DNA from: Bacillota bacterium
Lineage (GTDB): Bacteria; Bacillota; Sulfobacillia; Sulfobacillales; Sulfobacillaceae
Direction: 5' to 3'
Length of the DNA stretch: 47,946 nt
Assembly (NCBI GenBank): GCA_023475835.1
Contig: JAMCVM010000009.1
Location: 1 to 47,946, forward strand
Of the stretch, positions 23,900 through 47,697 are shown in pieces (position 1 is the stretch's first letter; the number at the start of each line of letters is the position of its first letter). Both the position numbers and the translations under genes were made by a program. The notes beneath the pieces were generated by a model. The model saw only the letters and a list, made by a program, of their open reading frames with translations. It was not told where the DNA came from and searched no databases.

Positions 23900-24681
23900 A
23901 TCAATCACTCCTTATACGCCTGAATTTCCGCAGGCGATTTCCTTGCATCCAAAATCCCAGACCATAAACATCGGGGTACCGTTTGGAACCAGGTTTGTGA
24001 GGGTCCAGTACGACCCGTCGCTCAATAGATTCGGAACTATTTTGGAAAAGGTGGGGGTCCTTTACTAATTTGATACCCGAGGGATTATTCTTTGAACCAT
24101 GGTTTCGTCGTTTGATGGCGCGATCTTATCGCCAGGCCACGCCGAACCATCCTCGCAAGCACCAGACCCTCACCATGCGCTAACAGATCTTCCTACAGAA
24201 ATACTTTTTTCGGATCGCAATGGATGGTATGAGTTGAGCAGCAAACCCACCCAATTCGCTCACAGAAGTGTCGCTAACCCTTACGAAATTTCTCCAATGG
24301 TTGTCCGCCGGGAGTATAGGAGAAAAGCCGCTTCGACCTGTGGCATGCTCCCTACCCACGTTCCCCCTCCCGGCGAAATAATTAGCACGGCCAGTCTGAC
24401 TGGTATGGCACCCGGATGCTTCGGAATTTCCCCCAGTTCGACAGGACGCCATCAGGCGACCACGCGGCCACGCCTTTCACCTCAGAGCTTCATATTGAAT
24501 TACCTGGGTTTGGTTCAACCAATGACTCGACCACCAACCTCACTGAAAAGCTAAACGCCAGGTTGTCTTGTTTGGCAGCGATGGGCTTGATTGGATGATC
24601 CCTTTGTTGTCAACCGGCGACAGCGTGTCCTACGCTTGGCGGTACCCGAAACTTGAGTCGATGGTGGGAACCGGTGACGGC
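23900..24681. other. Gene-free region upstream of the Ig-like gene
   Basis: I find no supportable gene here. Base composition resembles the degraded strips on either side, and no clear sigma-A promoter pair for the Ig-like gene is visible. Any promoter may be of another sigma class or lie nearer than expected. Confidence 0.4.
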
Positions 24682-31392: not shown

Positions 31393-32310
31393 TCAGTCAC
31401 CGCCATCGGGGGGCAGCACGCTCTGAGCGATATCGCGATCCAGTGCCTCATAGTGCTCATAGCCCAAGAGGTCATACAACTGGCGCCGGGTCTGCATCCG
31501 GTCAATCCAATCCTTTTGGCTGCCCGCTTGCTTTAGCGTCTGGTACAGCTCCCCCATGGCCAACGCAGCCACCCTGAGGGCAGTTACGGGGAAAATGACC
31601 AGCCGATATCCCAGGTCAGTAAACTGGTCGACACTAAGATATGGAGTGCGACCAAACTCGGTCATATTGGCCAATAAAGGTGCCGAGATTTTCTCGGCAG
31701 CTAACGCAAACTCTTCTCGGCTTTCGAGCGCTTCCACGAAAATAGCCTCTGCTCCCGCGGACTGATACTGTCGCGCGCGCTCTATGGCGGCGTCCATTCC
31801 CTCCACGCTGCGCGCATCGGTGCGGGCTACCACCACCAAGTCTGGCGCAATTCGGCGAATCATTTCTATCTTTTGACACATTTCCGCTGCCGACACCAAG
31901 CGTTTGCCACTTAAATGCCCACACTTTTTAGGCATTTCTTGGTCTTCGAGTTGGACCGCGGCCACGCCCGCTTCCACCATTTCAGACACGGCGCGGGCGA
32001 CGTTTAGCACACCCCCATAGCCGGTATCAATGTCCACCAGCAGCGGCACCTGACTGGCTCGAATCACTTCCCGGGCTCGGCGGCTGACTTCTTCGGACTC
32101 GATAATCCCTAAATCGGGCAAACCTTGGCTGGCGCTCAATGCCGCTCCCGATAGATAGAGCCCCTGAATAAAGCCCGCTTGACGGGCCAGCAATGCGCTA
32201 AGCCCGTCATAGACTCCGGGCAACACCAGAATCGGACCGGCCGTCATCCGTTCGCGAAATGCACTGGCAAGCTCCGTTTGCGTTTTGGCCTTCTCGATGA
32301 ACCAGGACAT
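31393..32310 (-). CDS. prpB: Methylisocitrate lyase
   Basis: PrpB cleaves 2-methylisocitrate into pyruvate and succinate, the last step of the 2-methylcitrate cycle. The isocitrate-lyase-superfamily barrel shows LPGVYDGLSALLA near the N-terminus, DIDTGYGG near 93-100 (metal site), and the signature PKKCGHL with KKCGH at about 128-132, then VARTDAR. Length is 305. ATG 32310 is chosen because GGAGGG lies five bases upstream; an open frame extends five codons further. It begins 20 bases after the prpD stop and is the last gene of the operon. Confidence 0.93.
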   Translation of the reverse strand: MSWFIEKAKTQTELASAFRERMTAGPILVLPGVYDGLSALLARQAGFIQGLYLSGAALSASQGLPDLGIIESEEVSRRAREVIRASQVPLLVDIDTGYGGVLNVARAVSEMVEAGVAAVQLEDQEMPKKCGHLSGKRLVSAAEMCQKIEMIRRIAPDLVVVARTDARSVEGMDAAIERARQYQSAGAEAIFVEALESREEFALAAEKISAPLLANMTEFGRTPYLSVDQFTDLGYRLVIFPVTALRVAALAMGELYQTLKQAGSQKDWIDRMQTRRQLYDLLGYEHYEALDRDIAQSVLPPDGGD

Positions 32311-32329
32311 CGCGTCCCTCCTCACTCTC

Positions 32330-33766
32330 CTAAGTGCTTTGGCCCCATACCGTGTTCGCAGGAATCCAAGTATCGACGAACGCCTCGACGCTCATCTCAG
32401 CCAGGCGTTTCGGATCTTCAGCCAAGGCCAAGATTTTTTGCTGCTGATCGGTTGGCAAGTGGCCCACGCTCTTCCCCAATTTCTCGAAAAGACGCGGCCA
32501 AGCTTCCTGCCGACGCTGACGATGGCCTAAAGGATATCGAATTTCTATGCGATCACTCGAAGTACCATCAGAAAAATGAACCTGGACCGCGTTCGCGATG
32601 GAACGGTGCTGAGGCTCCAAATATTCTCGGGAATACTCTGGCCGCTCCACCACCACCATCTTCGCCCGGAGCCTGTCAAGGCGAGGATCCGCCGCCACCT
32701 CTTGGCCGTAGGAGCGATCGGTCACTTCGCCGTACACGAGTCCTACCGCCACCATGTATTGCAACGAATGATCGCGGTCGGCGGGGTTTTTGAGCACCCC
32801 AGTCTTATTAATAATCCGCATCGCTGACTCTTGGGTTTCAATGTCGATTCGCTCTACCTGATCGAGGCGCGGGGCCACCTCGGGATACAAAGCGATAGCA
32901 CATTCAACGGCCGTCTGACCATGAAACTCGGCGGGATAGGCGACCTTGAAGAGGACATTTTCCATCACGTAATCTGAAAGCGGCCGATCCAGACGGAGAG
33001 TCTCCCCGTGCAAAACCACGTCCTCGAACCCCCACGTCGGCGCGCTGAGCGCGGTGGGATAGCCCATCTCACCCCGCATGCTAATCAGTGCCAAACGCAC
33101 TGCGCGAGCCACGGCATCCCCGGCAGCCCAAGATTTTCGGCTGCCGGTGTTGGGCGCATGGCGATAGGTGCGAAGACTGCCGCCATCGATGAATGCCTGC
33201 GATAACGCCTGCACTACCTGGGTCCGATCGGCGCCCAAGATCATCGCAACCACCGCGGTCGAAGCAACCTTAGTCCACCACACATGGTCAAATCCAACCC
33301 GGTTCAGGCCGACTGAAAGCGACAACACGCCTTGAATTTCATGGGCCTTCACCATCGCCCGAAGGACCTCTTCAATCCGCACTGGAGCCTCTCTTTGGGT
33401 GCGGCTCACCCAGTCAGCCACCGTCAAAATAGCCCCGATATTGTCACTCGGATGCCCCCACTCCAACGCCAGCCAGGTGTCATTATAATCTAGCCATCGA
33501 ATCATCGTGCCTAGATTGAACGCCGCTTCGACCGGATCGAGCACGAAGCGCGTTCCAGGCACTCGGGCTCCGTTCACCACCTCGACTCCTGGCGCCAAGC
33601 CTCCCAGCAGGTTGACGCACTGAGGATGGTTTAAAGCCAGCACCGCGCAACCTAAGGCATCCATCAAGACCCAGCCAGCCGTCTGCATGGCCAACTCGCT
33701 GAAGGTCCCTTCAGACAAGGTATAGTCGGCAATGTCTTGAATGACTTGGTCGTACTCCAGATCCAT
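32330..33766 (-). CDS. prpD: 2-methylcitrate dehydratase
   Basis: PrpD, of the MmgE/PrpD family, dehydrates 2-methylcitrate to 2-methylaconitate. The 478-residue protein has ALGCAVLAL near the N-terminus, IRWLDYNDTWLALEWGHPSDNIGA near 85-110 (the family's conserved D-x-N-D and H-P-S-D segment) and RAGWAAGDAVARAV-like SWAAGDA. The C-terminal lid holds YPLGHRQRR. ATG 33766 is preferred, since AGAGG sits seven bases upstream. It lies between prpC and prpB with short gaps on both sides, so the operon needs no acnD or prpF here. Confidence 0.92.
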   Translation of the reverse strand: MDLEYDQVIQDIADYTLSEGTFSELAMQTAGWVLMDALGCAVLALNHPQCVNLLGGLAPGVEVVNGARVPGTRFVLDPVEAAFNLGTMIRWLDYNDTWLALEWGHPSDNIGAILTVADWVSRTQREAPVRIEEVLRAMVKAHEIQGVLSLSVGLNRVGFDHVWWTKVASTAVVAMILGADRTQVVQALSQAFIDGGSLRTYRHAPNTGSRKSWAAGDAVARAVRLALISMRGEMGYPTALSAPTWGFEDVVLHGETLRLDRPLSDYVMENVLFKVAYPAEFHGQTAVECAIALYPEVAPRLDQVERIDIETQESAMRIINKTGVLKNPADRDHSLQYMVAVGLVYGEVTDRSYGQEVAADPRLDRLRAKMVVVERPEYSREYLEPQHRSIANAVQVHFSDGTSSDRIEIRYPLGHRQRRQEAWPRLFEKLGKSVGHLPTDQQQKILALAEDPKRLAEMSVEAFVDTWIPANTVWGQST

Positions 33767-33783
33767 CCCCTCACCTCTTCTAT

Positions 33784-34911
33784 TCAAATTGAACCGGATC
33801 CTGATTCCATTCTGAGTCCTCGTGGTCCCAGATAGCGAACCCGTGGCCGATAGAGTCTGTTATTGGCATACTGTTCGCGAATATGCGCGCAAAGCCCGGC
33901 TGTTCTGGCGGCAAAAAAGATGGGAGTAAACAACTCCGTGGGAATTCCCAACAAATGATAAACCGGGGCCGCATAATAGTCGAGGTTGGCAAAGAGCCCC
34001 TTTTCCTGACGCATCACGTCCTCCCCAATCTGGCACATCGCGAGCAGGTCGCTGCCGCCTTTTTCTTCCACTAACCGCGCCAACAAAGTCTTCATCATCA
34101 CTGCCCGTGGATCCGGGCGATGCATATAAACCCGGTGCCCGAATCCCATAATCCGATCTTTAGCCTGAAGACGCGCCTTTAGATAGGCTGCCATGGCTTC
34201 AGGGCGGCCCACCTTTTCCAGCATGTGCATCACTTCTTCGTTAGCACCCCCATGCAGCGGCCCCTTGAGAGAGGCTACAGCGCCAGTCATGGCGGCATAC
34301 GGATCGGCTAACGTCGAAGCAATAACCCGGGCACAAAATGTAGAATTTGGCATTTCGTGTTCGCTATAGAGGGTTAATAGCTTGTCAAATATCTCGCTGG
34401 CTAAGGCTGTCGGTTCCCTGCCGGTGATCTGCCACAGAAAATTCGCCGCATAATCGAGGTCAACACGCTCTGCGAGCAACGGCAAGTTCGCTTTGATGCG
34501 GTAGCTTTGGGCCACTAGCGTCGGCATTTTTGCCCAGAGACTCAGCAATTGTCGATCGCGATCGACGTTCTCGGCCCTGGCCACATCGGGATCTGAGGCC
34601 GCCAGGGCCGAAATCCCCGTGCGCAGCGCGTCCATCAAGTGGACCGCGGGTCCCAAGTGCCGGAAGATCTGAACTATCGCCTCGGGCACGGACTGGGCCT
34701 CAATCAACTCAGTGGCTAACTGTCGGTGTTGTTGCGGCGTCGGCAGTTCTCGGTGCCAGAGCAGATAGCCTACGTCGAGATACGACACTCGCTCGGCTAA
34801 TTCGATCAGGTCATATCCCCGAATCACAATGCTTTCTGCCTCGAGGTCTAAGTACGAGACCTCGGTTTCGGTAGCGATTACCCCATCCAAGCCTGGGTGG
34901 TACTCCTCCAT
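33784..34911 (-). CDS. prpC: 2-methylcitrate synthase / citrate synthase
   Basis: This type II citrate-synthase-fold enzyme (375 residues) condenses propionyl-CoA with oxaloacetate; activity with acetyl-CoA is common. Catalytic and binding blocks are GPLHGGANEEV (first His), MGFGHRVY (second His, with Arg), and NLDYYAAPVYHLLGIP with the conserved Asp. ATG 34911 follows GGAGGG by seven bases. Context with prpD and prpB assigns it to the methylcitrate cycle rather than to the TCA cycle. It is the first gene of the operon, and three 20-bp repeats lie just upstream. Confidence 0.92.
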   Translation of the reverse strand: MEEYHPGLDGVIATETEVSYLDLEAESIVIRGYDLIELAERVSYLDVGYLLWHRELPTPQQHRQLATELIEAQSVPEAIVQIFRHLGPAVHLMDALRTGISALAASDPDVARAENVDRDRQLLSLWAKMPTLVAQSYRIKANLPLLAERVDLDYAANFLWQITGREPTALASEIFDKLLTLYSEHEMPNSTFCARVIASTLADPYAAMTGAVASLKGPLHGGANEEVMHMLEKVGRPEAMAAYLKARLQAKDRIMGFGHRVYMHRPDPRAVMMKTLLARLVEEKGGSDLLAMCQIGEDVMRQEKGLFANLDYYAAPVYHLLGIPTELFTPIFFAARTAGLCAHIREQYANNRLYRPRVRYLGPRGLRMESGSGSI

Positions 34912-34950
34912 GGGCGTTCCCTCCATCTCTATTTGATCCGTCTCCTCTTT

Positions 34951-35010
34951 TCATCGATCAGTCTTTCTTGTAATCGATCAGTCTTTCTTGTAATCGATCG
35001 GCCTTTCTTG
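34951..35010. repeat. Three 20-bp tandem repeats upstream of prpC
   Basis: The unit TAATCGATCAGTCTTTCTTG occurs three times in a row. The first copy differs at its second base (C for A); the third has GG for AG..C at two positions (CGGCC for CAGTC). Each unit holds an ATCGAT palindrome, so the palindromes are 20 bp, two helical turns, apart. The array fills the space between the ABC1-kinase stop and prpC. This is the layout of a multi-site operator; the regulator is not in the window. Confidence 0.85.
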
Positions 35011-35016
35011 GTCGAA

Positions 35017-36741
35017 TCAGGGTCTGGATCTTGGATCTCGACCGATTCGCCGCGGCCGCATCCGTCTTCGCATGCGGATCAAACTCAGACTGGCTTTAAG
35101 CCAAAACACGGCCGCAACGATGCTCGCCGCCAACAACCAAGGAGTGATGGCCGCATGCGAGCGCGACCAAAATAGCCATCCCGAGAAAGCTACCCCCAAA
35201 AATACGGTGTCAATCAATAGCCGCATTTCTTGACTCAGCAGGTCTACCCGTCTTAACATCGGCGTCCACGCAGGTTCCGTTTTCACTCCACCAGCTTCAA
35301 TCTGATTTAACACCCGTTCCAAGCTGGCGGGAAGCCGTCCCAGCCTTCCCATTTCTTCGCCGACTCGACCCAAAACCACCCGCGTGGCGGTCTCGGCCTC
35401 CGCCCCCAACAGCGCACCGACCCACTCGCCGATCCGCGCCTGCCAACCCGACTCCGCAAAACTCTTGGCGTTAATCATCGGCAAGGCTTCTTTTTTGATC
35501 AGGTCCAGCCAATCCACGCTATCGTCCAACTGGCTGACCAGACTAAACAGCATGCCAATGGCCCGGCCCAAAAACATGTACTCGGCGGGGAACTCAAGAG
35601 GTTCTTGATATAAAAAGTCTTGGAAATCGGCCACCGCCTGATTCAACACCGGCCCCGGTTCCAATTGGACGCCGCCCACTTGCTGCAGTAAGACATTCAT
35701 CGAACGGACGAGCAAACGGGCATCTGCCTCGGGCCGAATAAAGCCGAGTCCTGCGATGGCCTGAACCACCTGCTGCGCGTCTTTAGCCAAGATCCCTTGA
35801 ATTAATTTAGCCGCATAGGGCATCTGTGTCGCCGGAATTTCTCCGCACATGCCAAAATCCAAAAGCACCAGTTGACCCTGTGCATCCGCCAAAAAGTTTC
35901 CAGGATGGGGATCAATTTGCACCAAGCCGTCGACAATGATCTGTTTAAAATATGTAGTCACCAAGGTTCGCGCCAAACGCTTGGGATCTAATCCATACGC
36001 CCTTAGGCCTTCGGCGTCGGTGAGCTTCACGCCCTCGACCAACTCCATCACCAGCACCTTGGGTCGGGTGTAATCCGGATAGGCTCTCGGTACCCGGACC
36101 TCGTCAATCGCAGCAAAATGCTGACTGAAGGCTTCTAGATTTTTCTGCTCATGCAGATAGTCTAGTTCTTGGCCCACCAGGCTTCGAAACTCTTCAAACA
36201 AGCGTTCGGCATTAATCCGTCGACCGACTTTGGTCCACCGCGAGATCGCCCGCATGATGTACCCCAACGCGCTCAGATCTGTCGCAGCTAGATCCAAAAT
36301 GCCTGGGCGTTGCACTTTCACCGCCACCCATTGTCCAGATTCCGCCAGGCGGGCCCGGTGCACTTGACCCAAAGAGGCGGCAGCCAAGGGGTCCGCATCG
36401 AACTCGGAAAACACCACCCTCCAACCGCCGCCATAGGCCGCATCCAGCAACGCTTCCACCTGAGGCCAAGGCGCGGCCGGGACTTGATCCTGCAGTACAG
36501 CCAACTCGCGGGTAAAGTCCAACGGCAATACGTCGGTCCTGGCACTCAAAAATTGACCCACTTTAATAATCAGACCGCCCAACCGAAATGCCTCGCGTCG
36601 AAATCTTTCACCGCCAGCGCGGTAAATGTCTCGCTCAGAGCGAGCCGCTTGCTCTGGATGCTGACGCCGTTTAGCGCGAGCGATCTTTCGAGAATCCTGG
36701 AAAAAGGACCAAGCCAAGGCAAAAACGGCCCAAGTCCTCAC
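35017..36741 (-). CDS. ABC1/UbiB-family atypical kinase
   Basis: The protein (574 residues) carries the UbiB/ADCK signature: LIIKVGQFLSAR (KxGQ extension), AAASLGQVHRA (Ala-rich loop replacing the Gly loop), VAVKVQ (ATP Lys), DPHPGNF and LLDFGMCG. Two hydrophobic helices at the C-terminus (VDLLSQEMRLLIDTVFLGVAFSGWLFW and WLLAASIVAAVFWL) anchor it in the membrane. The family supports quinone or lipid biosynthesis by ATPase or kinase activity on unknown partners. Start is GTG at 36741 with only a weak ribosome site, so it could be shifted. It lies 38 bases after the small membrane protein gene and is probably cotranscribed with it. Confidence 0.88.
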   Translation of the reverse strand: MRTWAVFALAWSFFQDSRKIARAKRRQHPEQAARSERDIYRAGGERFRREAFRLGGLIIKVGQFLSARTDVLPLDFTRELAVLQDQVPAAPWPQVEALLDAAYGGGWRVVFSEFDADPLAAASLGQVHRARLAESGQWVAVKVQRPGILDLAATDLSALGYIMRAISRWTKVGRRINAERLFEEFRSLVGQELDYLHEQKNLEAFSQHFAAIDEVRVPRAYPDYTRPKVLVMELVEGVKLTDAEGLRAYGLDPKRLARTLVTTYFKQIIVDGLVQIDPHPGNFLADAQGQLVLLDFGMCGEIPATQMPYAAKLIQGILAKDAQQVVQAIAGLGFIRPEADARLLVRSMNVLLQQVGGVQLEPGPVLNQAVADFQDFLYQEPLEFPAEYMFLGRAIGMLFSLVSQLDDSVDWLDLIKKEALPMINAKSFAESGWQARIGEWVGALLGAEAETATRVVLGRVGEEMGRLGRLPASLERVLNQIEAGGVKTEPAWTPMLRRVDLLSQEMRLLIDTVFLGVAFSGWLFWSRSHAAITPWLLAASIVAAVFWLKASLSLIRMRRRMRPRRIGRDPRSRP

Positions 36742-36992: not shown

Positions 36993-37182
36993 AATCCATC
37001 CCTCCTTGATTTCATTATAATCCTTCTCAGCGGGCATCAAGGCTGGATGTCCCATCCTCATCGCCGGTTCTTACTACTCTATCCAAATCCTCGCTCAATT
37101 TTTGCGCATTTGAACCCAATGGGGGTCGTCGACCGGAAAACCCGTGCGGACGCAGCCGCGTTTTTTCCTGCCATCGGTTATA

Positions 37183-37704
37183 ATGGCCGTAGCAACACAG
37201 TTCCTGCGTTTCTTAACGCAAAAGGCGGCGGCTTTCATGGTGATTATTGCCATTGGACTCATTTTACTTATCGGGGCCGGCGTGTGGCGATCTGGACCCA
37301 GTGGTCCTCGACTACTCATTGCCTTTGTCGGCGGATCCGTCGTCATCACCGGAATCATTACCGCCCTTTCGCTGCCGGAATTGGCTGGGGGTCCTCAACT
37401 AGCTGCGGACGCGCCCACGCTTCGCATTCGCATCAGCGGCACTCCCGGCCTCCATTACCAGGGGGCGTGGGCAGTCACCACGTTAGGCGGGTCGGCGGCC
37501 AGCGCAAATATCCGTGGCACCACGCCGCATCTTTACACCATGTCGCAGCAAGGCGATCTGGACGTGCGCATCCATCGCTTATCCCCGTCGGGCCATCTGA
37601 TTCTCGAAATCTTAGTCAATGGCCAGGTCGTGGCCAAGCGCGAATCGAGCGGCCATTCCACCACCGTGTTTGCTTCCTATGAAACGAACGGGGTCAGCGG
37701 TTAA
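37183..37704 (+). CDS. Two-helix membrane protein with an extracytoplasmic tail, unknown
   Basis: The protein has two hydrophobic segments (AAAFMVIIAIGLILLIGAGVW and LLIAFVGGSVVITGIITAL) and then about 110 residues of beta-rich sequence with TLRIRISGTPGLHYQGAWAV and ending ESSGHSTTVFASYETNG. The start is uncertain. GTG 37144, ATG 37183 and ATG 37237 are all in frame, the last after AAAGGCGG; a TATAAT sequence overlaps the second. The gene is convergent with the glycosidase gene and their stop codons overlap by four bases. No family is recognised. Confidence 0.6.
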   Translation: MAVATQFLRFLTQKAAAFMVIIAIGLILLIGAGVWRSGPSGPRLLIAFVGGSVVITGIITALSLPELAGGPQLAADAPTLRIRISGTPGLHYQGAWAVTTLGGSAASANIRGTTPHLYTMSQQGDLDVRIHRLSPSGHLILEILVNGQVVAKRESSGHSTTVFASYETNGVSG

Positions 37705-39806
37705 AGCTGATTGAACCATGTCTTTAAGTGACTTAGCGCCTGGCCCTGACTGGGAACGGTCAGATAAGTAGGCTCGGCAGACACCAAGAGGGTTTTAGCC
37801 GACTCCACATCATCCATCCAGTTGACTTGCTGCAAGCCGGCAATCGTCGGAGACGAGACCGTTACCCGGCCTGTCTTATCATTCCACACCATCAGTCGGA
37901 GATCCTTGCCATTGGTCCAGACTTCGCCACTGTAGTTGCCATGACTCCAAATCAGGTCAGGATGGTAGCCGCGAATCATGCGGATGGCAGTCAACACCGC
38001 GGAAAATGCAGGTTTTGGCGTGAAGTTCAAGTGTTGGTCACCCATCCCGCTATTAAGAAAATTTTGGATGAACAAGTAGACTGGTCCGCTTCCCGCACTG
38101 AGACTCTCGAAACTGGCGCGAACCAGATATTCCGCTTGCTGGATCGGACTGACCAATTGCGTATTCCAACCGACTTCGGTCATCCACAAAATGGGCGGCA
38201 AACCTGCTTGATGGAGAAACGACAAATTGTGAAACACCGCATTGGTAATCGGGAAGGTGGTGTTTTCTGGTGCCGCTTTGCCAGGATAATAATGGATCGC
38301 CAAGCCGTTGAAAACATCTCCCGAGGCCTGGTAGACGGTCTTGTCATCATGGGCGTATTCCAACAAAAAGGCCTTGGGTTCAATGGCTCTTACCGTAGCC
38401 GCCGTGGCCTTGACCAACTCGCCATACTGGGTCATACTGCCGCCCCAGCGCGAGGGAATCGACGGCTCGTTCCAGATTTCCCAGTCGGTGATGCCATAGG
38501 CGCCCCATCCGTGTGCTTGGGCCAGCAACCCTCCCGGCCGATAGCGCTCGACAATTTGCCGCACTCCTGCTTCATAGGCCTTGACGGCGGCGGCAAAGGT
38601 AATGTGATCGGCAGGATCAAAGGGATTTTTCCCTGTTGGCCACGAATCTAAGATGCCGAGCACTTGCATGCCATGATGATGCGCAGCGGTCATCATGGGA
38701 TCGTAAATCGACCAATCGGGCAATAAATTGGTATTAAACTCCAGCCTCACGGAGCGCACCCCTTGGTCGGCCAAGGTCGAAAACTCCAGTGCAATGTCTT
38801 GTTGCCGAACCTTGGGGTTCAAATACCAGGAGACCACACTAATATTCATTCCGAGGCGAGTACTTCCCGGATTGAGCGCAGGGGGAATCAGAGCCAAGCC
38901 CATTTGCGGTAGAGATTCCAGCACCTGTCCGGTGTCCTGATTGATTAAATTGTACTGAACCCCATACCATCCCAAAAGGCTCACCGGCAACCGAACATTA
39001 AACGATTGACTGTGTCCGCGAGCGATATGAATGGCACGACGCACGGTCCAATGCTGTCCGTCCGCGTCGACTACCTGGCCGACCACAATGAAGTTTAAGG
39101 GCCGGTTTTCTCCATTTTCGACATGAATTTGATATGAAGGCGGATCGCTCGCCGCATACATGCCGGCCGCCGCGGTCGGGTCGGCGGTGACGACGGTTTG
39201 AAGCGGGTGAATCTGAAATTGGCGGAACTGAACATCGGCATGAGCCGCATATAGTCCCGCATCCGGCTGGGTTCGAGCTAAACCACGAAAAAACCGTCCG
39301 GTAATCTGCCACCCGGCAGGTGGTTTTGACCCTGTCCACACTCGTCCATCAAGTACATTGTCCGAAACCAACAGTTCCATTGACACCCAGCGATGCAATG
39401 GTACTTTATAAGGTATGCGGCTCACCACCTGAAAGCCGTCATTGATCAGTTCCAGTCCCTGGTTGGTCACATCCAAGGACCATTTGTATTGCCCGTTGCC
39501 ATTGGCCGCTGAGTGATCGACCAGACCCACCGTGTATTTCCCTGAATGCGGCAGCGCGCCGATATTAAACTCCACCGACAACAGGGTCGGATTAGGATAA
39601 TGATTCACTTGATAAGCATATTGATTCACCAAATTGGTGGTTTGATTGAGGTCGGTGGCGTCTATGATGCCATCCGAAGCGGTCCATTGGCCCGCGCTGG
39701 GAATCAACCCATCCACCGACCCCGGGGTGGCTTCGACGAAACTCCCGACACCTAGACTGGCCACCACAAGTAATCCTGCCGTCAACCATCGCGAAATCAA
39801 CCGCAT
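37701..39806 (-). CDS. Secreted clan GH-A glycoside hydrolase
   Basis: A signal peptide (MRLISRWLTAGLLVVASLGVGSFVEA) is followed by a beta-sandwich region of about 170 residues that looks like a LamG/GH-associated carbohydrate-binding domain, a middle beta-domain near 215-315, and a TIM barrel from about 318. Acid/base E447 lies in DWEIWNEPS and the nucleophile E544 in WMTEVGWNT. A C-terminal beta domain closes the 701 residues. The pattern fits GH39/GH5-like families of clan GH-A, but I cannot name the family or the sugar. It follows the GH5-type gene by 113 bases on the same strand, and the two probably act on one polymer or glycolipid outside the cell. Confidence 0.8.
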   Translation of the reverse strand: MRLISRWLTAGLLVVASLGVGSFVEATPGSVDGLIPSAGQWTASDGIIDATDLNQTTNLVNQYAYQVNHYPNPTLLSVEFNIGALPHSGKYTVGLVDHSAANGNGQYKWSLDVTNQGLELINDGFQVVSRIPYKVPLHRWVSMELLVSDNVLDGRVWTGSKPPAGWQITGRFFRGLARTQPDAGLYAAHADVQFRQFQIHPLQTVVTADPTAAAGMYAASDPPSYQIHVENGENRPLNFIVVGQVVDADGQHWTVRRAIHIARGHSQSFNVRLPVSLLGWYGVQYNLINQDTGQVLESLPQMGLALIPPALNPGSTRLGMNISVVSWYLNPKVRQQDIALEFSTLADQGVRSVRLEFNTNLLPDWSIYDPMMTAAHHHGMQVLGILDSWPTGKNPFDPADHITFAAAVKAYEAGVRQIVERYRPGGLLAQAHGWGAYGITDWEIWNEPSIPSRWGGSMTQYGELVKATAATVRAIEPKAFLLEYAHDDKTVYQASGDVFNGLAIHYYPGKAAPENTTFPITNAVFHNLSFLHQAGLPPILWMTEVGWNTQLVSPIQQAEYLVRASFESLSAGSGPVYLFIQNFLNSGMGDQHLNFTPKPAFSAVLTAIRMIRGYHPDLIWSHGNYSGEVWTNGKDLRLMVWNDKTGRVTVSSPTIAGLQQVNWMDDVESAKTLLVSAEPTYLTVPSQGQALSHLKTWFNQL

Positions 39807-39919
39807 GCTGGCAACACTCCATCGAATTGGCAGACCTTGCCGTTTTCGCTAGTGTATCATGACTACCGTCTACGTGCCGCACCTTCCTCCACTCCGATTG
39901 TCCCTGTCGGATGAATCGG

Positions 39920-41443
39920 CTAGTCGGCGGGGGTAATCGAAATCTGCACGATTCCATTGGTAGCAGGGATGGTTAGCCTCGTCGCCGGCAAGTTCAATTC
40001 GGAGTTCTTAAATGTTTGGACGCTCTGGGTCACGTGGAGATTGGCAGGGCTCACCGTCAGATGAAATCCATTGGGATAAGTCAGGCCGCAAAGATACACC
40101 GCCGTCGCTCCCTGGCTTTTTAGCGCTCGATATTGGAAGGTGTAGACCCGGTTGCTAAACTGAAATCGGCTTTTCATCGCCGTCCCGCCCACCGTCAAAG
40201 GATGTGGCGAGGCTATGATTTGCGCTCGTTCCGGGTCCGCTCCGAAGGTGCCGTCCGCCTCAACCAATCCCCAGGGATAACTGCCGCTACGGATTTGCCA
40301 AAGCCACAACAAGCCACCGACGGCATAGCGGTTTTGCAGGCGGATCTCGTCTTTTAGCCACGCGTTGCCGCCGGCGGTGGGACTGTCTCCAAACTCGCCG
40401 ACCAGCCACGGCACATCCTCCCTCGATGCCAGACCCTGCGCCTTTCGATACGCGATGGTCAGCGAAGCCAGGGTGCCATTCCACGGCGTCAAGTTCGCCC
40501 GAACCATGGGCGTGGCCAGATGCGCTCCCAGCGTGCTTAGAAAATGTGAGAGATTCAGTCCGCGATAGGTTCCGGTATACATATGAGGCTCGAATACGAT
40601 GCCTTGGCGAAGCCATCTCCGCTGAGGCCACGATTGGTAGCCCACCATCATCGAGACCACGTCCGGCTCCAAAAAAATCGGTTGCGAAGACGACACGGAC
40701 CGGATCGCAGCCACGGCCCGGTGGTAAAACGGAAAAAGGACCGTGCCGGCAAATGATAGCGGAGGGAAAAATCCTGGATTGGGCTCGTTCATCACATCAT
40801 ACCCGGCAACTGCTGGATTCTGGGCAAATTTCGAGGCCAATTGCTTGAGTGCCAAGTCATAGTAATATTGCAAGCCATGGCCGTCGACGGGGCGATCCAG
40901 CCAGAAACTGGTAAAGGCCCCTTGCACCGCTGGATCGGTGATATTGCCAAGTATCGGTGTGGTTTTGAGCCCGAACGTTTTCACCATCCACGAGGGGAAG
41001 CCATCGGATTCGCCGGGATATAAGCTAGCTGCATACCGATCTTGGTGCAAATCTAAAATCACCCAAATTCCATTAGCACTCGCCCAACCGACAACCTGAC
41101 TAATGGCGGTCAGATAGGCTTGGCTAAATTGGCCAGGGCGAGGTTCCAGCCGACTCAACGACAACGGCAGGCGCACCAAGTTGAAGCCTAACGCATGCAT
41201 CTCAACGAAGTCTCGGGCATGGATGCCTACAGCCTCCGGGAAATGCGGGTTGTACGCGACTAGAGCGTTGACATTGACTCCCCGAAACCAGGGCACTTGG
41301 CCTTCGGGTCCTCTGAGACTTCGGCCGGCGACATGGAGCGGGAACACCGTGGATGTTGTCACCGCGGAGGTCAGGGTGCCGAGCCGAGGTCCCAAGAAGA
41401 GACACGACGTCACTACCCACGGTAATTTCGCTAACCAATGCAT
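39920..41443 (-). CDS. Secreted GH5-family glycosidase (endoglycoceramidase-like)
   Basis: A signal peptide or N-terminal membrane anchor (LPWVVTSCLFLGPRLG) leads to a TIM barrel that opens with the GH5 phrase GPEGQVPWFRGVNVNALVAY. Barrel motifs include VRLPLSLSRLEPRPG, VILDLHQDRYA at 128-138, acid/base E220 in YDVMNEPNPG and nucleophile E350 in WLVGEFGDSP. A C-terminal beta-sandwich of about 90 residues (SRFQFSNRVYTFQYRAL onwards) is like the Glyco_hydro_5_C domain of endoglycoceramidases. Bacterial relatives release glycans from lipid. The substrate in this organism is unknown. GGAGGG nine bases upstream fixes the start. It lies between the orphan 499-residue gene and the second glycosidase. 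Confidence 0.82.
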   Translation of the reverse strand: MHWLAKLPWVVTSCLFLGPRLGTLTSAVTTSTVFPLHVAGRSLRGPEGQVPWFRGVNVNALVAYNPHFPEAVGIHARDFVEMHALGFNLVRLPLSLSRLEPRPGQFSQAYLTAISQVVGWASANGIWVILDLHQDRYAASLYPGESDGFPSWMVKTFGLKTTPILGNITDPAVQGAFTSFWLDRPVDGHGLQYYYDLALKQLASKFAQNPAVAGYDVMNEPNPGFFPPLSFAGTVLFPFYHRAVAAIRSVSSSQPIFLEPDVVSMMVGYQSWPQRRWLRQGIVFEPHMYTGTYRGLNLSHFLSTLGAHLATPMVRANLTPWNGTLASLTIAYRKAQGLASREDVPWLVGEFGDSPTAGGNAWLKDEIRLQNRYAVGGLLWLWQIRSGSYPWGLVEADGTFGADPERAQIIASPHPLTVGGTAMKSRFQFSNRVYTFQYRALKSQGATAVYLCGLTYPNGFHLTVSPANLHVTQSVQTFKNSELNLPATRLTIPATNGIVQISITPAD

Positions 41444-41527
41444 GATTCACATCCCTCCTCTACACCACTTCCCTCCCTTCCCCTCAATTCCCCGCCTTGC
41501 CAGGTTGGCAATGCTTGGCAGCGATGA

Positions 41528-43027
41528 TTATCCTTGGCTGTTCTCGGCCAAAAAGCGCTGTCTCAAATGCGCTATGACTCCGTTGTAATAGTTGTTGCCG
41601 ACCGATAAATACTCGATTTGATTCAGATAGTCCTCAATGGCCGACACGGCTCCGATTTCGGCTAATTCATCGAGCGTCCTTCCCCCTGCCCATCGATGAT
41701 GGGTTTGCACAATGAGAGTAATCAGCCATTCTTCGTCGACCATCGCGGTTTCTTCAGGGCTCAGCCTTCGTCCCAGCTTGGGAGCCTGAACCAGATAGCC
41801 CCGGCACTCCGCGTGGGTTTGGTAGATGGGTAAGCGCTGGCCCAGCTCCTGAACCTCGGCCACGGCTTTGGGCAACACCTGGCCCTTGGGTGCCAATTTC
41901 CGCAACAGGGGTTCTAACGTTTTGAAGATTCGCGGAGAAAAAACGCGCACAGACATTTGCACCGTGTTTTCAAACCGAATATCGGCTAAAATCGGATGAG
42001 CCTCAGCCTCAACATTCAGGCGTTCGGAAAAAAATTCAATGCCGTCTCCTCCATACCACCAGCCGAAGGATTCGCCTGCGCGATACAGTTGAAATTCCGG
42101 ACTTTCTGATAGGGCTTTGGCCCATGCCCCGGGATCGGTCAGAAAATACCGGTGGATGGTCTCTACCCCTGTGGCTGCACTTTTCACTCCGCCGAAGTGA
42201 ACCCCAGGACTTGGCCATTTGAAATCGGCCGGCACTTTAAACGGCCGGTCAAACCGTTCTGCCATCCTCGGTCCCAAATCGGCTCGCCCCAACGCGGGAA
42301 GATAGGTCGAAGACACGCCCTCCGGTCTCAATCCATTCAGCACCCGAATCGCTCCGCGAATGGCCGGTTCGTACCATCGCAAAAACTCCTCTTGACTCGA
42401 CACTAACCCTGCCGCTCGAGCCTGCAACTCACTGCGTGCAATGGCATCCAATAAAAATCCACGATCTCCGGGCTGGGCCAAATAGACCACGCCCACCGGC
42501 ACCAGACCCTCATCCACGGCAACCAAGTCCCCAAACAACAACCCGTGCAGCCGTCTCAGACCTTGATCGGACGGGCCCACCAGCACCTGACCCTGACGCC
42601 CGTCCAAAAGATTGACGACACCAAGCCACGCCGAGGAAGATTCCACATCCGTCACTTGCCATAACGAAGGGAACGTCTGAAGGCGATTTCGAGCTAAGAT
42701 CTGAGCCGACTCGGACAGATCGGCGCCCATTTCATCCAAATAGCGATCCTGAACGCTTCGACCCTCCTCATCGCGCAGCATGCGAAACAGGTAATCCGTC
42801 AGTTCATAGGTCTCATGCTGGTTTAACTGGACTGAACGCGCCGCCAGCTTGGAATCCGTCTCGGCGACCACCCTTTCCGAATCAAGCAAATAATGATGAA
42901 CTAGCGTGTCCAAGGCCTTATGGCCGCGAAGATGGGACGCACAATAGACATTTTCCGTGGAGAAATATTCTTGCTTGGCTTGATGATACCTAGATTCGCC
43001 CAGGACTTGGTTGCTGTTATCAGACAT
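41528..43027 (-). CDS. Orphan 499-residue protein, unknown
   Basis: I do not recognise this protein with confidence. It is soluble, without signal peptide or membrane helix. The stretch ARNRLQTFPSLWQVTDVESSSAWLGVVNLLDGRQGQVLVG...LLFGDLVAV weakly resembles the wing domain seen in SEC-C-associated and pRiA4b ORF-3-like proteins. A C-terminal helical part (GGRTLDELAEIGAVSAIEDYL) recalls MbcA/ParS-type antitoxin ends. Neither is enough to name it. AAGGATG precedes its ATG. It is the first gene before the two glycosidases on the same strand and diverges from the mannosyltransferase, so it could be a regulator of this block. That is inference. Confidence 0.72.
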   Translation of the reverse strand: MSDNSNQVLGESRYHQAKQEYFSTENVYCASHLRGHKALDTLVHHYLLDSERVVAETDSKLAARSVQLNQHETYELTDYLFRMLRDEEGRSVQDRYLDEMGADLSESAQILARNRLQTFPSLWQVTDVESSSAWLGVVNLLDGRQGQVLVGPSDQGLRRLHGLLFGDLVAVDEGLVPVGVVYLAQPGDRGFLLDAIARSELQARAAGLVSSQEEFLRWYEPAIRGAIRVLNGLRPEGVSSTYLPALGRADLGPRMAERFDRPFKVPADFKWPSPGVHFGGVKSAATGVETIHRYFLTDPGAWAKALSESPEFQLYRAGESFGWWYGGDGIEFFSERLNVEAEAHPILADIRFENTVQMSVRVFSPRIFKTLEPLLRKLAPKGQVLPKAVAEVQELGQRLPIYQTHAECRGYLVQAPKLGRRLSPEETAMVDEEWLITLIVQTHHRWAGGRTLDELAEIGAVSAIEDYLNQIEYLSVGNNYYNGVIAHLRQRFLAENSQG

Positions 43028-43237
43028 AGATAGTCATCCTTCTTTACTCACTGTAATGGATTGCAGTCAATACAACCCTTAAATCTCCCCCGATGGTAGC
43101 GAAATCTCGACAAAAATGCCACCCACGTCTGGCAACTGACTGAGATGTTTCGGATCCGGTCGATGCCGGCTGGGCCCCAAGAGCCGCATATAACCGTCAA
43201 CAGAGGACACTCTGATAGCCAAGGGAGGGAATCTCTG

Positions 43238-44443
43238 GTGGCCACTGGGAGAAGGCGGCGGCGTCATCATTGGGCAGAAACGTCCCTAGGCGGCAGACGC
43301 CTGTTCGCCATCATTGCGATGGCTATCAGCACACGTCTCAGCGACTGGCTCTTGGGCTACGTATGCTACCGACTCTTGCCCCACGCCTATCCGCGCATCC
43401 CTCGCGGCTTTCTTTCTGCCTCCTCCTGGATTCCCGGCCTTCGCCTATGGTCGAACTGGGACGGGCTTTGGTATTTATCCATCGCCCATTTGGGATATCA
43501 TGGCCGCGTCGAGGCTACGGCCTTTTTCCCGCTCTATCCCCTCTTGGTCTCGGGATTGGGGGCCACCGTCTTGGCCGGCGTTATTGTGTCCTGGGCCGCA
43601 TTTGGGGTGGGTCTGGTCTTCCTTTGGCAGATGACCTCGGACCGTGATGGGCCGCGCATTGCCTGGTACACCGTAATCGGTTGTATCACCTGGCCGACGG
43701 CGTTTTTCTACGGCGCGGTCTATACCGAGTCCCTCTTTTTTGCCTTGGCCACCGCCGCCCTTTATTGTGGGCAGCGCCGTGCATATGCGGCATCGGCGGT
43801 GCTTTCAGGCGTCGCCAGCGCCGTTTCTATCTACGGCATGCTGCTGGCCGTAGTCTTGGCCGGGACCATGATCCGCCATCGCCGAAAGGGCCTAACGCCT
43901 CCTCAACCCTGGTCCTATCTCTTGATGACCCCCTTGGGCTTATTCAGTTACATGGGGTTTTTGTGGCTTCGCTTTGGACACCCGCTGATGTTCGAACGGG
44001 TCCAATACCATTGGGGTCGACACCGCGGCTGGCCTTGGCTCACCCTGCTTCGAGGATTTCATTCGGCTTGGCGGGCACGAGCAGTCTTTGACACGGGCAA
44101 CGTGTGGCTCCCCTTCACTCATGCGGCCAACAACAGTATCAACATCTGGAATTTTCTGTTTTATGCCACCGCGATTGGCTTGGTCCTATTCATCGGCTGG
44201 CGGCTGCCCGTGGAGTGGTTGGCTTACACCGGGCTGTCTCTGATGCTTCCCTTATTCGACCCAGCCCGGGCCGAGCCTTTGATGTCGTTTCCCCGGCTGT
44301 TTCTTTCCAGCGTCCCGCTCTTTCCCGCCCTGGGTATGATACTCGCCCGCTCCCGCTTGGCCCGGGGCCTCTACTTTCTCCTCGCCATTCCCTTAGGACT
44401 ATGGATGCTCGCTCGCTTCGTCACTTTTCGCTGGGTCGGCTAA
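43238..44443 (+). CDS. PIG-V-like mannosyltransferase, multi-pass membrane
   Basis: The 401-residue protein has about ten hydrophobic segments. LWSNWDGLWYLSIAHLGYHGRVEATAFFPLYPLL is the PIG-V/Mannosyl_trans2 signature with the lumenal WD motif used to bind polyprenyl-phosphate sugar. In eukaryotes the family adds mannose to GPI anchors; bacterial homologues transfer sugars to lipids on the outer face. ITWPTAFFYGAVYTESLFFALATAALY is the next conserved loop. The start is GTG at 43238, where GGGAGGG stands eight bases upstream; the open frame extends to 43145 without such a site. It is followed by the MFS gene after 71 bases. Confidence 0.83.
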   Translation: MATGRRRRRHHWAETSLGGRRLFAIIAMAISTRLSDWLLGYVCYRLLPHAYPRIPRGFLSASSWIPGLRLWSNWDGLWYLSIAHLGYHGRVEATAFFPLYPLLVSGLGATVLAGVIVSWAAFGVGLVFLWQMTSDRDGPRIAWYTVIGCITWPTAFFYGAVYTESLFFALATAALYCGQRRAYAASAVLSGVASAVSIYGMLLAVVLAGTMIRHRRKGLTPPQPWSYLLMTPLGLFSYMGFLWLRFGHPLMFERVQYHWGRHRGWPWLTLLRGFHSAWRARAVFDTGNVWLPFTHAANNSINIWNFLFYATAIGLVLFIGWRLPVEWLAYTGLSLMLPLFDPARAEPLMSFPRLFLSSVPLFPALGMILARSRLARGLYFLLAIPLGLWMLARFVTFRWVG

Positions 44444-44479
44444 GGCGGGGCGGCACGCCTCTGCTTAGTTTACGATGGG

Positions 44480-44494
44480 TTACAATCATTGTAA
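44480..44494. promoter_or_regulatory. Palindromic operator candidate before the MFS gene
   Basis: TTACAATCATTGTAA is a perfect 7-1-7 palindrome located 20 bases before the MFS start codon. Its half-site resembles MarR/OhrR- and TetR-type operators. A bound repressor would block the promoter or start region of the MFS-esterase pair. No regulator gene is adjacent. Confidence 0.65.
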
Positions 44495-44514
44495 GCTGGT
44501 TTGGGGGGCCGATA

Positions 44515-45741
44515 ATGTCTCATAATTTATTTTGGCTGTATACCATCCGCGCTTTTCGTAGCTTCACCACAGCGTTTTTGACGGTGGCCTTTCCTCTTTA
44601 TCTGGCCGTCGGCGGATACTCGGCCGCACGCATCGGCTGGACGCTCACCTTTTCGGGCGTGCTGACGGCAGGCTTGGTAGTTGCAGTGGGTTTCGGCGGT
44701 GACCTTTGGGGACGTCGCACTATTATTATCTTATTAGGCCTGTTATCCGTTGTCGGCGCCGGCCTTTTGTCGTGGACGGATGCTCTTTGGGTAGTCGTCC
44801 TCGCCAGTGGACTCGGGGGAGTGGGTCGTGGCGGCGGTGCGGGCAGTGGGGGCTCGTGGGGGCCGGTGTTTCCGGCCGAGCAACCGTTACTGGCCGCGTC
44901 GGTTACGGCCGAACGGCGCACGGAGGCGTTCGGACGCATTTCCTTCATTGGCGTGATGGCTGGGGCTTTGGGATCGTTGGTGGCCGGATTGCCGGCAGTG
45001 CTCCATCGGCACGGTTGGGCCTGGCTACCGTCATACCATGTGCTCTTCGCCCTGGCCGCGGTGATTTCGTTAATCATGGTGGTTGCCAGTTTTTCTCTGC
45101 GAGAGACTCCTCCTTCCAAGAAACCGGCTGAAGATACCGCCAATGCTCCGCCGATCTCGCCCTGGCAACTGATTCGGCGATTGTCTCTGACCAACGCGCT
45201 CAACGGCCTTGGCTTCGGATTTCTGGGTCCTTTGTTGACCTATTGGTTCTATCGCCGATACCACGTAGGCCCCGGCGAGCTTGCCATTTTGTATGCGCTC
45301 ATCAATCTGGTCTCGGCCATTCCCTATCTCGGCGCGGCTAAGTTAAGCGCGCGCTTTGGTTCCGTCCGCACTGTGACTGTCACCCGTTCTCTTGGCCTGC
45401 TGATGCTCTTGGGCATGGTCTGGGCACCAACATTTGCCTGGGCGGGAGTCGCCTATGCGCTGCGCATGGCCTTCAATTCACTTGGTATGCCAGCCAGGCA
45501 ATCTTTTACCATGGCCGTCTCCAATGACCGCTATCGCAGCCGCATCTCGGCTTTTAGCCAACTGCCCTCGCAGGTGACCTCCATGATCTCGCCCGCCATA
45601 GGCGGATCGTTGATGGACGCCTTTTTAAATGTGCCCATTTTCGGTGCCGTCGTATTTATGGGAGCCAATGTCGTGGCCTATTGGTTTGCGTTTAGAAATG
45701 TGACCCCGCCCGAGGAACAAAAACAGGTTCTGACGTCCTAG
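44515..45741 (+). CDS. MFS transporter (probable drug/solute exporter)
   Basis: The 408-residue protein has twelve predicted hydrophobic segments and the MFS loop-2 motif A in the form GGDLWGRRT, typical of drug:proton antiporters. A glycine-rich stretch (GGVGRGGGAGSGGSWGP) lies in the fourth helix region. LGMPARQSFTMAVSNDRYRSR is the second-half motif. The ATG at 44515 follows GGGGGG by six bases and continues the mannosyltransferase transcript or an own one controlled by the upstream palindrome. Substrate unknown. The esterase gene follows after 19 bases, so the pair may handle the same compound. Confidence 0.85.
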   Translation: MSHNLFWLYTIRAFRSFTTAFLTVAFPLYLAVGGYSAARIGWTLTFSGVLTAGLVVAVGFGGDLWGRRTIIILLGLLSVVGAGLLSWTDALWVVVLASGLGGVGRGGGAGSGGSWGPVFPAEQPLLAASVTAERRTEAFGRISFIGVMAGALGSLVAGLPAVLHRHGWAWLPSYHVLFALAAVISLIMVVASFSLRETPPSKKPAEDTANAPPISPWQLIRRLSLTNALNGLGFGFLGPLLTYWFYRRYHVGPGELAILYALINLVSAIPYLGAAKLSARFGSVRTVTVTRSLGLLMLLGMVWAPTFAWAGVAYALRMAFNSLGMPARQSFTMAVSNDRYRSRISAFSQLPSQVTSMISPAIGGSLMDAFLNVPIFGAVVFMGANVVAYWFAFRNVTPPEEQKQVLTS

Positions 45742-45760
45742 ATACCAAAGGAGGATTGGG

Positions 45761-46747
45761 ATGTATCGCCTCACCAGTTTCTGGCATGTAAGCTCCGTCC
45801 TGGCTCACAATCCGCTATCCGATCCCGCTCGCCGAAGGACTTGGGTGCTTACGCCGGACGATTATCCCGACGATGCTCCCTTGCCCAGCATTTGGATGCT
45901 CGCCAGTTTTATGAGCACCGGCTCGGCATTTCTATCGTTTCGGCCCTGGCAAGAGAATTTCATGGATCGGGTCTCCCGCCTCCGAAAGTCGGGCGCACTG
46001 CTACCGGTTCGCTTCGTATTACCCGACGTCTTTACCGCGGTCGGCGGCAGTCAATTCATCGATTCTCCGGCTATCGGCCGTTACCAGACGTATCTCTGGC
46101 ACGAACTCCTGCCTGCCGTAGAGGCGCGCTATGCCACCGGTCGGCGGGGACTCGCCGGCACTTCGTCGGGAGGCTATGGGGCCATCATCACCGCCTTGCT
46201 CGGCCCGCCGCTGTTTAGCGGCGTTGCCGCTCACGCGGCCGATATGGGCTTTTCTTGGTGCTACCTCAGCGAATTTCCCAAACTACTGGACGTACTGCGC
46301 ACGTGCGGCGGGCTGGAAATTTTTTGGCATCGGTTCCAAAACGCGGCTCAAAAACCGCCGTCTTGGCTCTCCGCTATCAATCTCATGGCGATGGCTATGG
46401 CCTACAGCCCCAATTTGAACGCACCCCCGCCCCACGCCGACTTGCCTCTCGATCCCTTCACCTTAGAAATCCGACCAAGGGTCTGGACGCGGTGGCTGGA
46501 ATGGGATCCCATCTCCTTGATTGATCGTCCCGAAATCCAAGATCGGGCGCGCCAACTCCAATATTTCTACTTTGACGCAGGCCTCAGCGACCAGTATCAC
46601 TTGCAATACGGTGCTGAACTATTTCACCGCAAACTCAGTAATTATGCGATCGAGCACGACTTCGCTCCCTTCGAAGGTGATCATTTTGGCACCCAATCGC
46701 GTTTTGATCTCAGTCTTCCGCGACTAGCCGAAGCCCTGAGTGTTTGA
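45761..46747 (+). CDS. Putative esterase (alpha/beta hydrolase, Fes/EsteraseD type)
   Basis: The alpha/beta hydrolase (328 residues) has the nucleophile elbow GTSSGGYGA near 132-140, an acid site in YFDAGLSDQYH and a histidine in FEGDHFG, the triad order of the esterase D/antigen-85 group. The N-terminus lacks a secretion signal. AAAGGAGG lies six bases before ATG 45761, 19 bases after the MFS stop. Siderophore, acyl-sugar or formyl-glutathione-type esters are possible; the sequence does not decide. Confidence 0.8.
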   Translation: MYRLTSFWHVSSVLAHNPLSDPARRRTWVLTPDDYPDDAPLPSIWMLASFMSTGSAFLSFRPWQENFMDRVSRLRKSGALLPVRFVLPDVFTAVGGSQFIDSPAIGRYQTYLWHELLPAVEARYATGRRGLAGTSSGGYGAIITALLGPPLFSGVAAHAADMGFSWCYLSEFPKLLDVLRTCGGLEIFWHRFQNAAQKPPSWLSAINLMAMAMAYSPNLNAPPPHADLPLDPFTLEIRPRVWTRWLEWDPISLIDRPEIQDRARQLQYFYFDAGLSDQYHLQYGAELFHRKLSNYAIEHDFAPFEGDHFGTQSRFDLSLPRLAEALSV

Positions 46748-46800
46748 CAACCGTCCCCAGTTCAGAGATGATATAGCAAACATGTGTTTTGAGGTGGGTT

Positions 46801-47697
46801 ATGCGCGAGATATTAAAATGGCAAGCGCGGTCGCTGGTGAATCGGCAAAACCATTCACCCTATGGATTTGATGCGACCGTAAATCCTTATCGCGGCTGCG
46901 CCCACGCCTGCCACTATTGTTACGCCCGCGATACCCATTTGTTCCTTGACCTCAACATCGGCGAAGACTTTTCTCAAAAACTCTTTGTGAAGCAACGCTC
47001 GCCCGAACAAATTCGCCAAGAAGTAAACCGTCTGCCCTTGGATCGCGTGATTGCGCTGGGCACTGCCACTGACCCCTATCAGCCGCTGGAAGGACATCAT
47101 CGGATCAGCCGGCGCCTCCTTGAAATCATCGCGGATAGCGGCCACGCAGTCACCATTACCACGAAATCCCCCTTGATTTTAAGAGACATAGACCTCCTCG
47201 AAAGGTTAGCCAACCATCATCAGCTCCGGGTGCATATCAGCCTCATCTCCCTCAACCGCGACCTTTTGCGCGTTCTCGAACCCGGGGCGCCTCCGCCCTT
47301 GGTGCGACTCCAAACCATCGCCGAGTTAACTCAGCATGCCATTCCAACTCTTTTGTTTGCCGCCCCCATCCTGCCCTATCTGACCGACCAGGAAGAGCAG
47401 TTGGCGCGATTGTTCAAGGGTGCCAGCGAGGCCTTGGTCGATGGCGTGATGGCCTCTCGCCTGCGCCTAAGCCCTACGATGAAATCTTATTTTTTTGACT
47501 GGCTCGTCACCCACTATCCTGACCTCTTGGAACCCTACCGCAGCCTTTATCCTGGATCCTCGCAATATCCACTGGCCAGTTACAGTCAGGCGCTTAGCCA
47601 ACGAGTAGCCAAACTGCAGCAGCACTATGGCCTTTCCCAACCATATCCCACACCCAAAGCCTGGCGTCCCATCAGCCAACTTGAGTTCCATTTTTAA
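46801..47697 (+). CDS. Radical SAM protein, SplB/Rv2578c-like
   Basis: The 298-residue protein has the 4Fe-4S motif CAHACHYCYAR (CxxxCxxC with Tyr) in NPYRGCAHACHYCYA, then VIALGTATDPYQPLE and VTITTKSPLILRD. These three blocks mark the Rv2578c/SPL-like radical SAM group related to spore photoproduct lyase. True SplB has further cysteines that I do not see, so a repair function is not assumed. Start is ATG 46801, with GAGGTGGG a few bases upstream, not the TTG at 46789. It stands alone after the esterase gene. Confidence 0.83.
   Translation: MREILKWQARSLVNRQNHSPYGFDATVNPYRGCAHACHYCYARDTHLFLDLNIGEDFSQKLFVKQRSPEQIRQEVNRLPLDRVIALGTATDPYQPLEGHHRISRRLLEIIADSGHAVTITTKSPLILRDIDLLERLANHHQLRVHISLISLNRDLLRVLEPGAPPPLVRLQTIAELTQHAIPTLLFAAPILPYLTDQEEQLARLFKGASEALVDGVMASRLRLSPTMKSYFFDWLVTHYPDLLEPYRSLYPGSSQYPLASYSQALSQRVAKLQQHYGLSQPYPTPKAWRPISQLEFHF

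Follow-up and report, generated by a model that had tools for sequence, protein, structure and literature searches.

Genes at the locus

The window, i.e. the whole 47,946-nt stretch of DNA analysed here, makes up a single contig in the draft genome (3.8 Mb) of a Bacillota bacterium (GenBank assembly GCA_023475835.1). The genes of interest are listed in Table 1. Three of them, encoding an orphan protein, a GH5 enzyme and a GH39-like enzyme, form a co-directional run with gaps of 84 and 113 bases. All six genes that a preliminary description of this DNA had named (the two glycosidases, the then unknown protein, a transferase, a transporter and an esterase) are open frames at the positions given there; they are conserved, uninterrupted by stops, in a second species of this genus and also in other genera. 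Comparison with the sister species gave dN/dS values of 0.07–0.40 for nine genes (the eight of 37144–47697 plus the ABC1 kinase gene), and the three-gene run is under purifying selection. The MFS gene probably starts at the ATG at 44515 and not at 44104.

Table 1. Genes at 37144–47697 of the window, with the basis of each annotation
Feature	Position	Strand	Basis
Small protein, two predicted membrane segments and a conserved C-terminal domain	37144..37704	+	genome comparison
Probably secreted GH39-like (GH-A) glycosidase, 701 aa	37701..39806	-	profile and structure model
Probably secreted GH5 endoglycoceramidase-like glycosidase, 507 aa, with GH5 C-terminal domain	39920..41443	-	Pfam, NCBIfam, solved relatives
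Orphan protein, 499 aa, first gene of the run orphan-GH5-GH39-like	41528..43027	-	
PIG-V-like membrane glycosyltransferase, 432 aa, divergent from the orphan gene	43145..44443	+	Pfam, sub-threshold
MFS transporter, 408 aa, core gene of the family	44515..45741	+	Pfam
Esterase (PF00756), 328 aa	45761..46747	+	Pfam
Radical SAM protein, Rv2578c/PA0069 type (below both cut-offs)	46789..47697	+	outside the finding

Elsewhere in the window, a 1216-aa open frame at 20258–23908 has a signal-peptide-like start, and prpB, prpD and prpC-like genes (labelled by eye) at 31393–36741 adjoin the ABC1 kinase gene; the order of these prp-like genes and the ABC1 kinase gene is unchanged in the relatives carrying the block.

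Two glycosidases of known fold families

The GH5 protein passes the Pfam Cellulase profile (PF00150; 78.6 bits, cut-off 23.5) and also exceeds the cut-off for the Pfam GH5 C-terminal domain (33.3 bits). With the profile score above the curated cut-off and both catalytic glutamates present, it belongs to GH5 (PF00150). For the NCBIfam endoglycoceramidase I family (NF051847) it scores 112.6 bits, far below the cut-off of 700, and it is therefore endoglycoceramidase-like rather than a proven member. Among solved structures, the GH5 family profile found 6jyz as best match (6.6e-46) and Rhodococcus endoglycoceramidase II at 7.6e-30, followed by a putative beta-xylosidase (9ku5; 9e-10) and a sterylglucosidase (2.9e-8); the first plain endoglucanase ranked at 6.9e-6. 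Judged by sequence, the enzyme is closer to the endoglycoceramidases than to plant-polymer GH5 enzymes, in agreement with the endoglycoceramidase-like GH5 protein of the preliminary description; its best solved relatives are endoglycoceramidases. A literature search on 6JYZ turned up no paper. E220 (NEP) and E350 (GEFG) align with the glutamates of endoglycoceramidase II (where entry 2osx has S at the position of E350) and are the putative acid/base and nucleophile, respectively. The protein is probably secreted, as suggested by a signal-like start seen by eye in four orthologues; a hydropathy scan of it found no segment reaching its threshold. Two further families of the class have GH5 relatives, at 43–49% identity, that occur without the orphan, and thus such a GH5 enzyme can exist on its own.

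The GH39-like protein on its own matched no Pfam family up to E 1 and lies outside the Pfam GH39 profile (PF01229), which 3 of its 21 relatives match (best 5e-5). A profile of these 21 relatives found 5jvk (6.3e-24) and PslG (1.8e-14) among solved structures. The structure model (mean pLDDT 82.9) superimposes on 5jvk, a GH39 protein of Bacteroides cellulosilyticus, with Z 30.0 (rmsd 3.1, 431 aligned), and on PslG with Z 23.2 (rmsd 3.3, 347 aligned). It consists of a predicted all-beta front, a middle beta-sandwich and a catalytic barrel at about 314–690. E447 and E544, invariant in all 21 rows, are the putative acid/base and nucleophile. By its barrel fold and the paired glutamates in NEP and TE motifs the protein fits GH39; the second GH-A glycosidase of the preliminary description is confirmed, with a GH39-type fold. 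It, too, is probably secreted. A promoter scan performed no better than chance level.

The orphan and the small protein

The protein of 499 aa is a real gene and matches no family, in line with its earlier listing as unknown: Pfam, NCBIfam, PADLOC and PHROGs gave no family, comparison by sequence with solved structures gave nothing usable, and by eye no signal peptide was seen. It was found in 5 of 61 genomes in the search of relatives; across the class, 5 of 154 genomes carry it, the same five in both cases and the window's genome among them. When 398 genomes of the phylum were scanned, the only match at E 0.001 or better was the window itself; matches at E 0.02–0.07 in five other genomes and at a second place in the window's genome are taken as chance. 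The fold matches of its model (mean pLDDT 70.7) are weak (best Z 7.3), and we therefore claim no function for it; the model contains a predicted OB/cold-shock-like barrel at 118–184. A resemblance to SEC-C domain proteins, which we had assumed, was rejected for the 13 SEC-C open frames compared (best E 0.19), which were picked out of many SEC-C matches in the family.

The small protein, situated just outside the region covered by the preliminary description and unnamed there, is conserved, and its gene is convergent with and adjoins the GH39-like gene in all five genomes. Family searches gave no usable score for it, and our assumption that its C-terminal domain is of the MmpS type was supported by no search.

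Neighbouring genes and gene order in relatives

The PIG-V-like protein reaches 20.1 bits with PF04188 (residues 102–233), below the curated cut-off of 22.4, and is thus no member of this family by that measure. Of the outer-face mannosyltransferase proposed earlier, the gene is present and the family match is sub-threshold. PIG-V-like genes occur in all 34 genomes of the family, with 1–6 matching places each. The MFS transporter and the esterase (PF00756), described before as a pair, are both confirmed above the Pfam cut-off. The transporter is found in 32 of the 34 genomes (in 24 of these at 60% identity or higher), and the esterase, in which no signal peptide was seen by eye, in 11 of 34, seven of which lie outside the five carriers and are without the glycosidase group. 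In several genomes the radical SAM gene comes after the esterase gene.

Three of the carriers (G000, G001 and G010) share one gene order all the way from the ABC1 kinase gene to the radical SAM gene. The arrangement differs in genus g4: in G004, the GH5 gene adjoins the orphan gene, the GH39-like gene is on a different contig and the esterase is missing; in G013, the orphan gene sits at a contig end, the GH5 gene was not found, the GH39-like gene lies 6 kb away in opposite orientation, and the PIG-V-like, MFS and esterase genes are on another contig. Frames for an AAA-type ATPase and a plastocyanin-like protein (by eye) lie between the orphan and GH39-like genes of G013 (L099, 1900–8200). The GH5 gene adjoins the orphan gene in four of five carriers, the fifth being interrupted by the contig end; the GH39-like gene is not adjacent to GH5 in two of five. 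The pair of orphan and GH5 is kept in three genera, and the GH39-like gene adds on in two of them.

As a set, the orphan, GH5 and GH39-like genes are confined to one clade of three genera, which probably consists of acid-loving bacteria. In a tree of the MFS protein with 24 rows, a branch supported at 100/100 separates the five carriers from the remaining rows (86/71 when one long row, G017, is included). Since the five carriers form one clade, their co-occurrence reflects one shared ancestry and not repeated, independent linkage, and with this single clade history the linkage of the glycosidase group to the core genes is not replicated. Moreover, the synteny extends equally to the prp-like and ABC1 kinase genes alongside; conserved order therefore marks no pathway here. 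Independent co-occurrence in relatives, as expected of a functional glycolipid block, was not found: the genes are core or independently distributed, and the carriers are one clade. What stands of the block proposed earlier is the orphan-GH5 unit, which in two of the three genera also takes in the GH39-like gene; it does not extend to the PIG-V-like, MFS and esterase genes. Plain plant-polymer enzymes without co-occurrence, the outcome named in the preliminary description as speaking against it, were not obtained.

Possible roles of the glycosidase group

We infer that the orphan, GH5 and GH39-like genes form an operon and that both probably secreted enzymes are retaining beta-endoglycosidases. 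The reading we prefer, and hold tentatively, is a clade-specific operon whose two enzymes act on glycolipid headgroups or extracellular polysaccharide, located beside unrelated core genes. In this reading, the GH5 enzyme would release a sugar headgroup from a ceramide-like or diacylglycerol lipid, hydrolysing the beta-glycosidic bond that joins them in a double-displacement reaction; E220 would serve as acid/base and E350 as nucleophile. An extracellular polysaccharide would be the target of the GH39-like enzyme, which would use E447 and E544 and act in the manner of PslG, shown to be a retaining endo-beta-glucosidase (PMC11912335). The orphan might be a cytosolic, perhaps regulatory, protein, and the PIG-V-like, MFS and esterase genes would be core or independently distributed neighbours outside the glycosidase pathway.

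As for the substrate, the major polar lipids of Sulfobacillus harzensis are glycolipid, phospholipid and phosphatidylglycerol (PMC8489842), and the window's genome holds two places above cut-off for MGDG-synthase-type glycosyltransferases. Endogenous glycoglycerolipids are therefore a possible substrate. The published S. harzensis glycolipid also weakens the earlier remark that glycolipid chemistry is little described in acidophilic Firmicutes. A literature search with limited terms found no paper on the genes studied here.

Both enzymes might instead be scavengers that degrade glycans or glycolipids of fungi, algae or other bacteria for food, which we consider rather unlikely. Indeed, both look secreted, and the window's genome contains 8 open frames of the GH39-like family (nine match rows, two in one frame); five of the seven paralogue neighbourhoods (L110–L114), inspected by eye from open frames, showed nothing resembling a polysaccharide synthesis cluster, as expected of degradative enzymes. 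However, the block is without other saccharolytic genes, and its sole transporter is the core MFS protein. One of these neighbourhoods (L113, 2988–8732) contains another PIG-V-like gene, at a distance of about 1.7 kb from the GH39-like paralogue.

It is unlikely, too, that the two glycosidases are unrelated single enzymes and chance neighbours, GH5 pairing with the orphan only and the GH39-like enzyme with the small protein only. This would agree with genus g4, where the GH39-like and small protein genes are separated from the orphan gene (in G004 also from GH5), and with the adjacency of the small protein and GH39-like genes in five of five genomes, but in both other genera GH5 and GH39-like genes are adjacent and co-directional. 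The three-gene run could also represent inherited neighbours without common function.

A single system for remodelling envelope glycolipids that spans the whole stretch, as put forward in the preliminary description, is very unlikely; in it the PIG-V-like protein would build, the glycosidases trim and the MFS protein and esterase export or deacylate. The shared order in G000, G001 and G010, the two MGDG-synthase-type glycosyltransferases and the S. harzensis glycolipid (PMC8489842) fit it, but nearly all genomes of the family have PIG-V-like and MFS genes, and have them without the glycosidases, the esterase occurs in seven genomes without them and is absent from G004, and the prp-like and ABC1 kinase genes share the synteny. 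Since transferase, transporter and esterase occur elsewhere without the glycosidases, the locus gives no good indication of a dedicated glycolipid pathway.

Returning to the clade-specific glycosidase operon, a bolder version, to which we give little credence, is that an acidophile clade evolved its own operon for envelope-glycolipid turnover, comprising an endoglycoceramidase-like enzyme acting on bacterial glycoglycerolipids and not on ceramides, a partner resembling PslG and, in a controlling or sensing role towards it, the orphan with its OB barrel. The group is ordinary in kind, with two probably secreted glycosidases of known fold families and an orphan. The locus nevertheless provides two assayable enzymes, of which GH5 would show if bacterial glycoglycerolipids are substrates for endoglycoceramidase-like folds; for the rest, it illustrates how core genes and accessory enzymes can be taken for one pathway by adjacency.

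Comparison with known systems

The PIG-V-like protein resembles the PIG-V mannosyltransferases (PF04188) at a sub-threshold level and differs from the members of that family in missing the Pfam cut-off. For the GH5 enzyme, the endoglycoceramidases are the best sequence match among solved structures. It is like Rhodococcus endoglycoceramidase II (2osx) and 6jyz in having a Cellulase barrel and a GH5 C-terminal domain, and its catalytic glutamates align with those of the former, whereas it is set apart from endoglycoceramidase I by a score far under the NCBIfam cut-off. Endoglycoceramidases (EC 3.2.1.123) cut oligosaccharide from ceramide; nothing here indicates that ceramide glycolipids are produced or encountered by the host. 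The endoglycoceramidase subfamilies are GH5_27, 28 and 29; the GH5_28 enzymes are all from Actinobacteria but one, and the GH5_29 enzymes reported were from Rhodococcus (PMC3526467). GH5_28 and GH5_29 are bacterial subfamilies. PslG and 5jvk share the barrel fold and the position of both glutamates with the GH39-like enzyme, although the identity in the structural alignment is only 17–18%. PslG is encoded within an exopolysaccharide synthesis cluster (PMC11912335), whereas the GH39-like gene lies outside one, and the GH39-like enzyme has a longer beta-rich front than either PslG or 5jvk.
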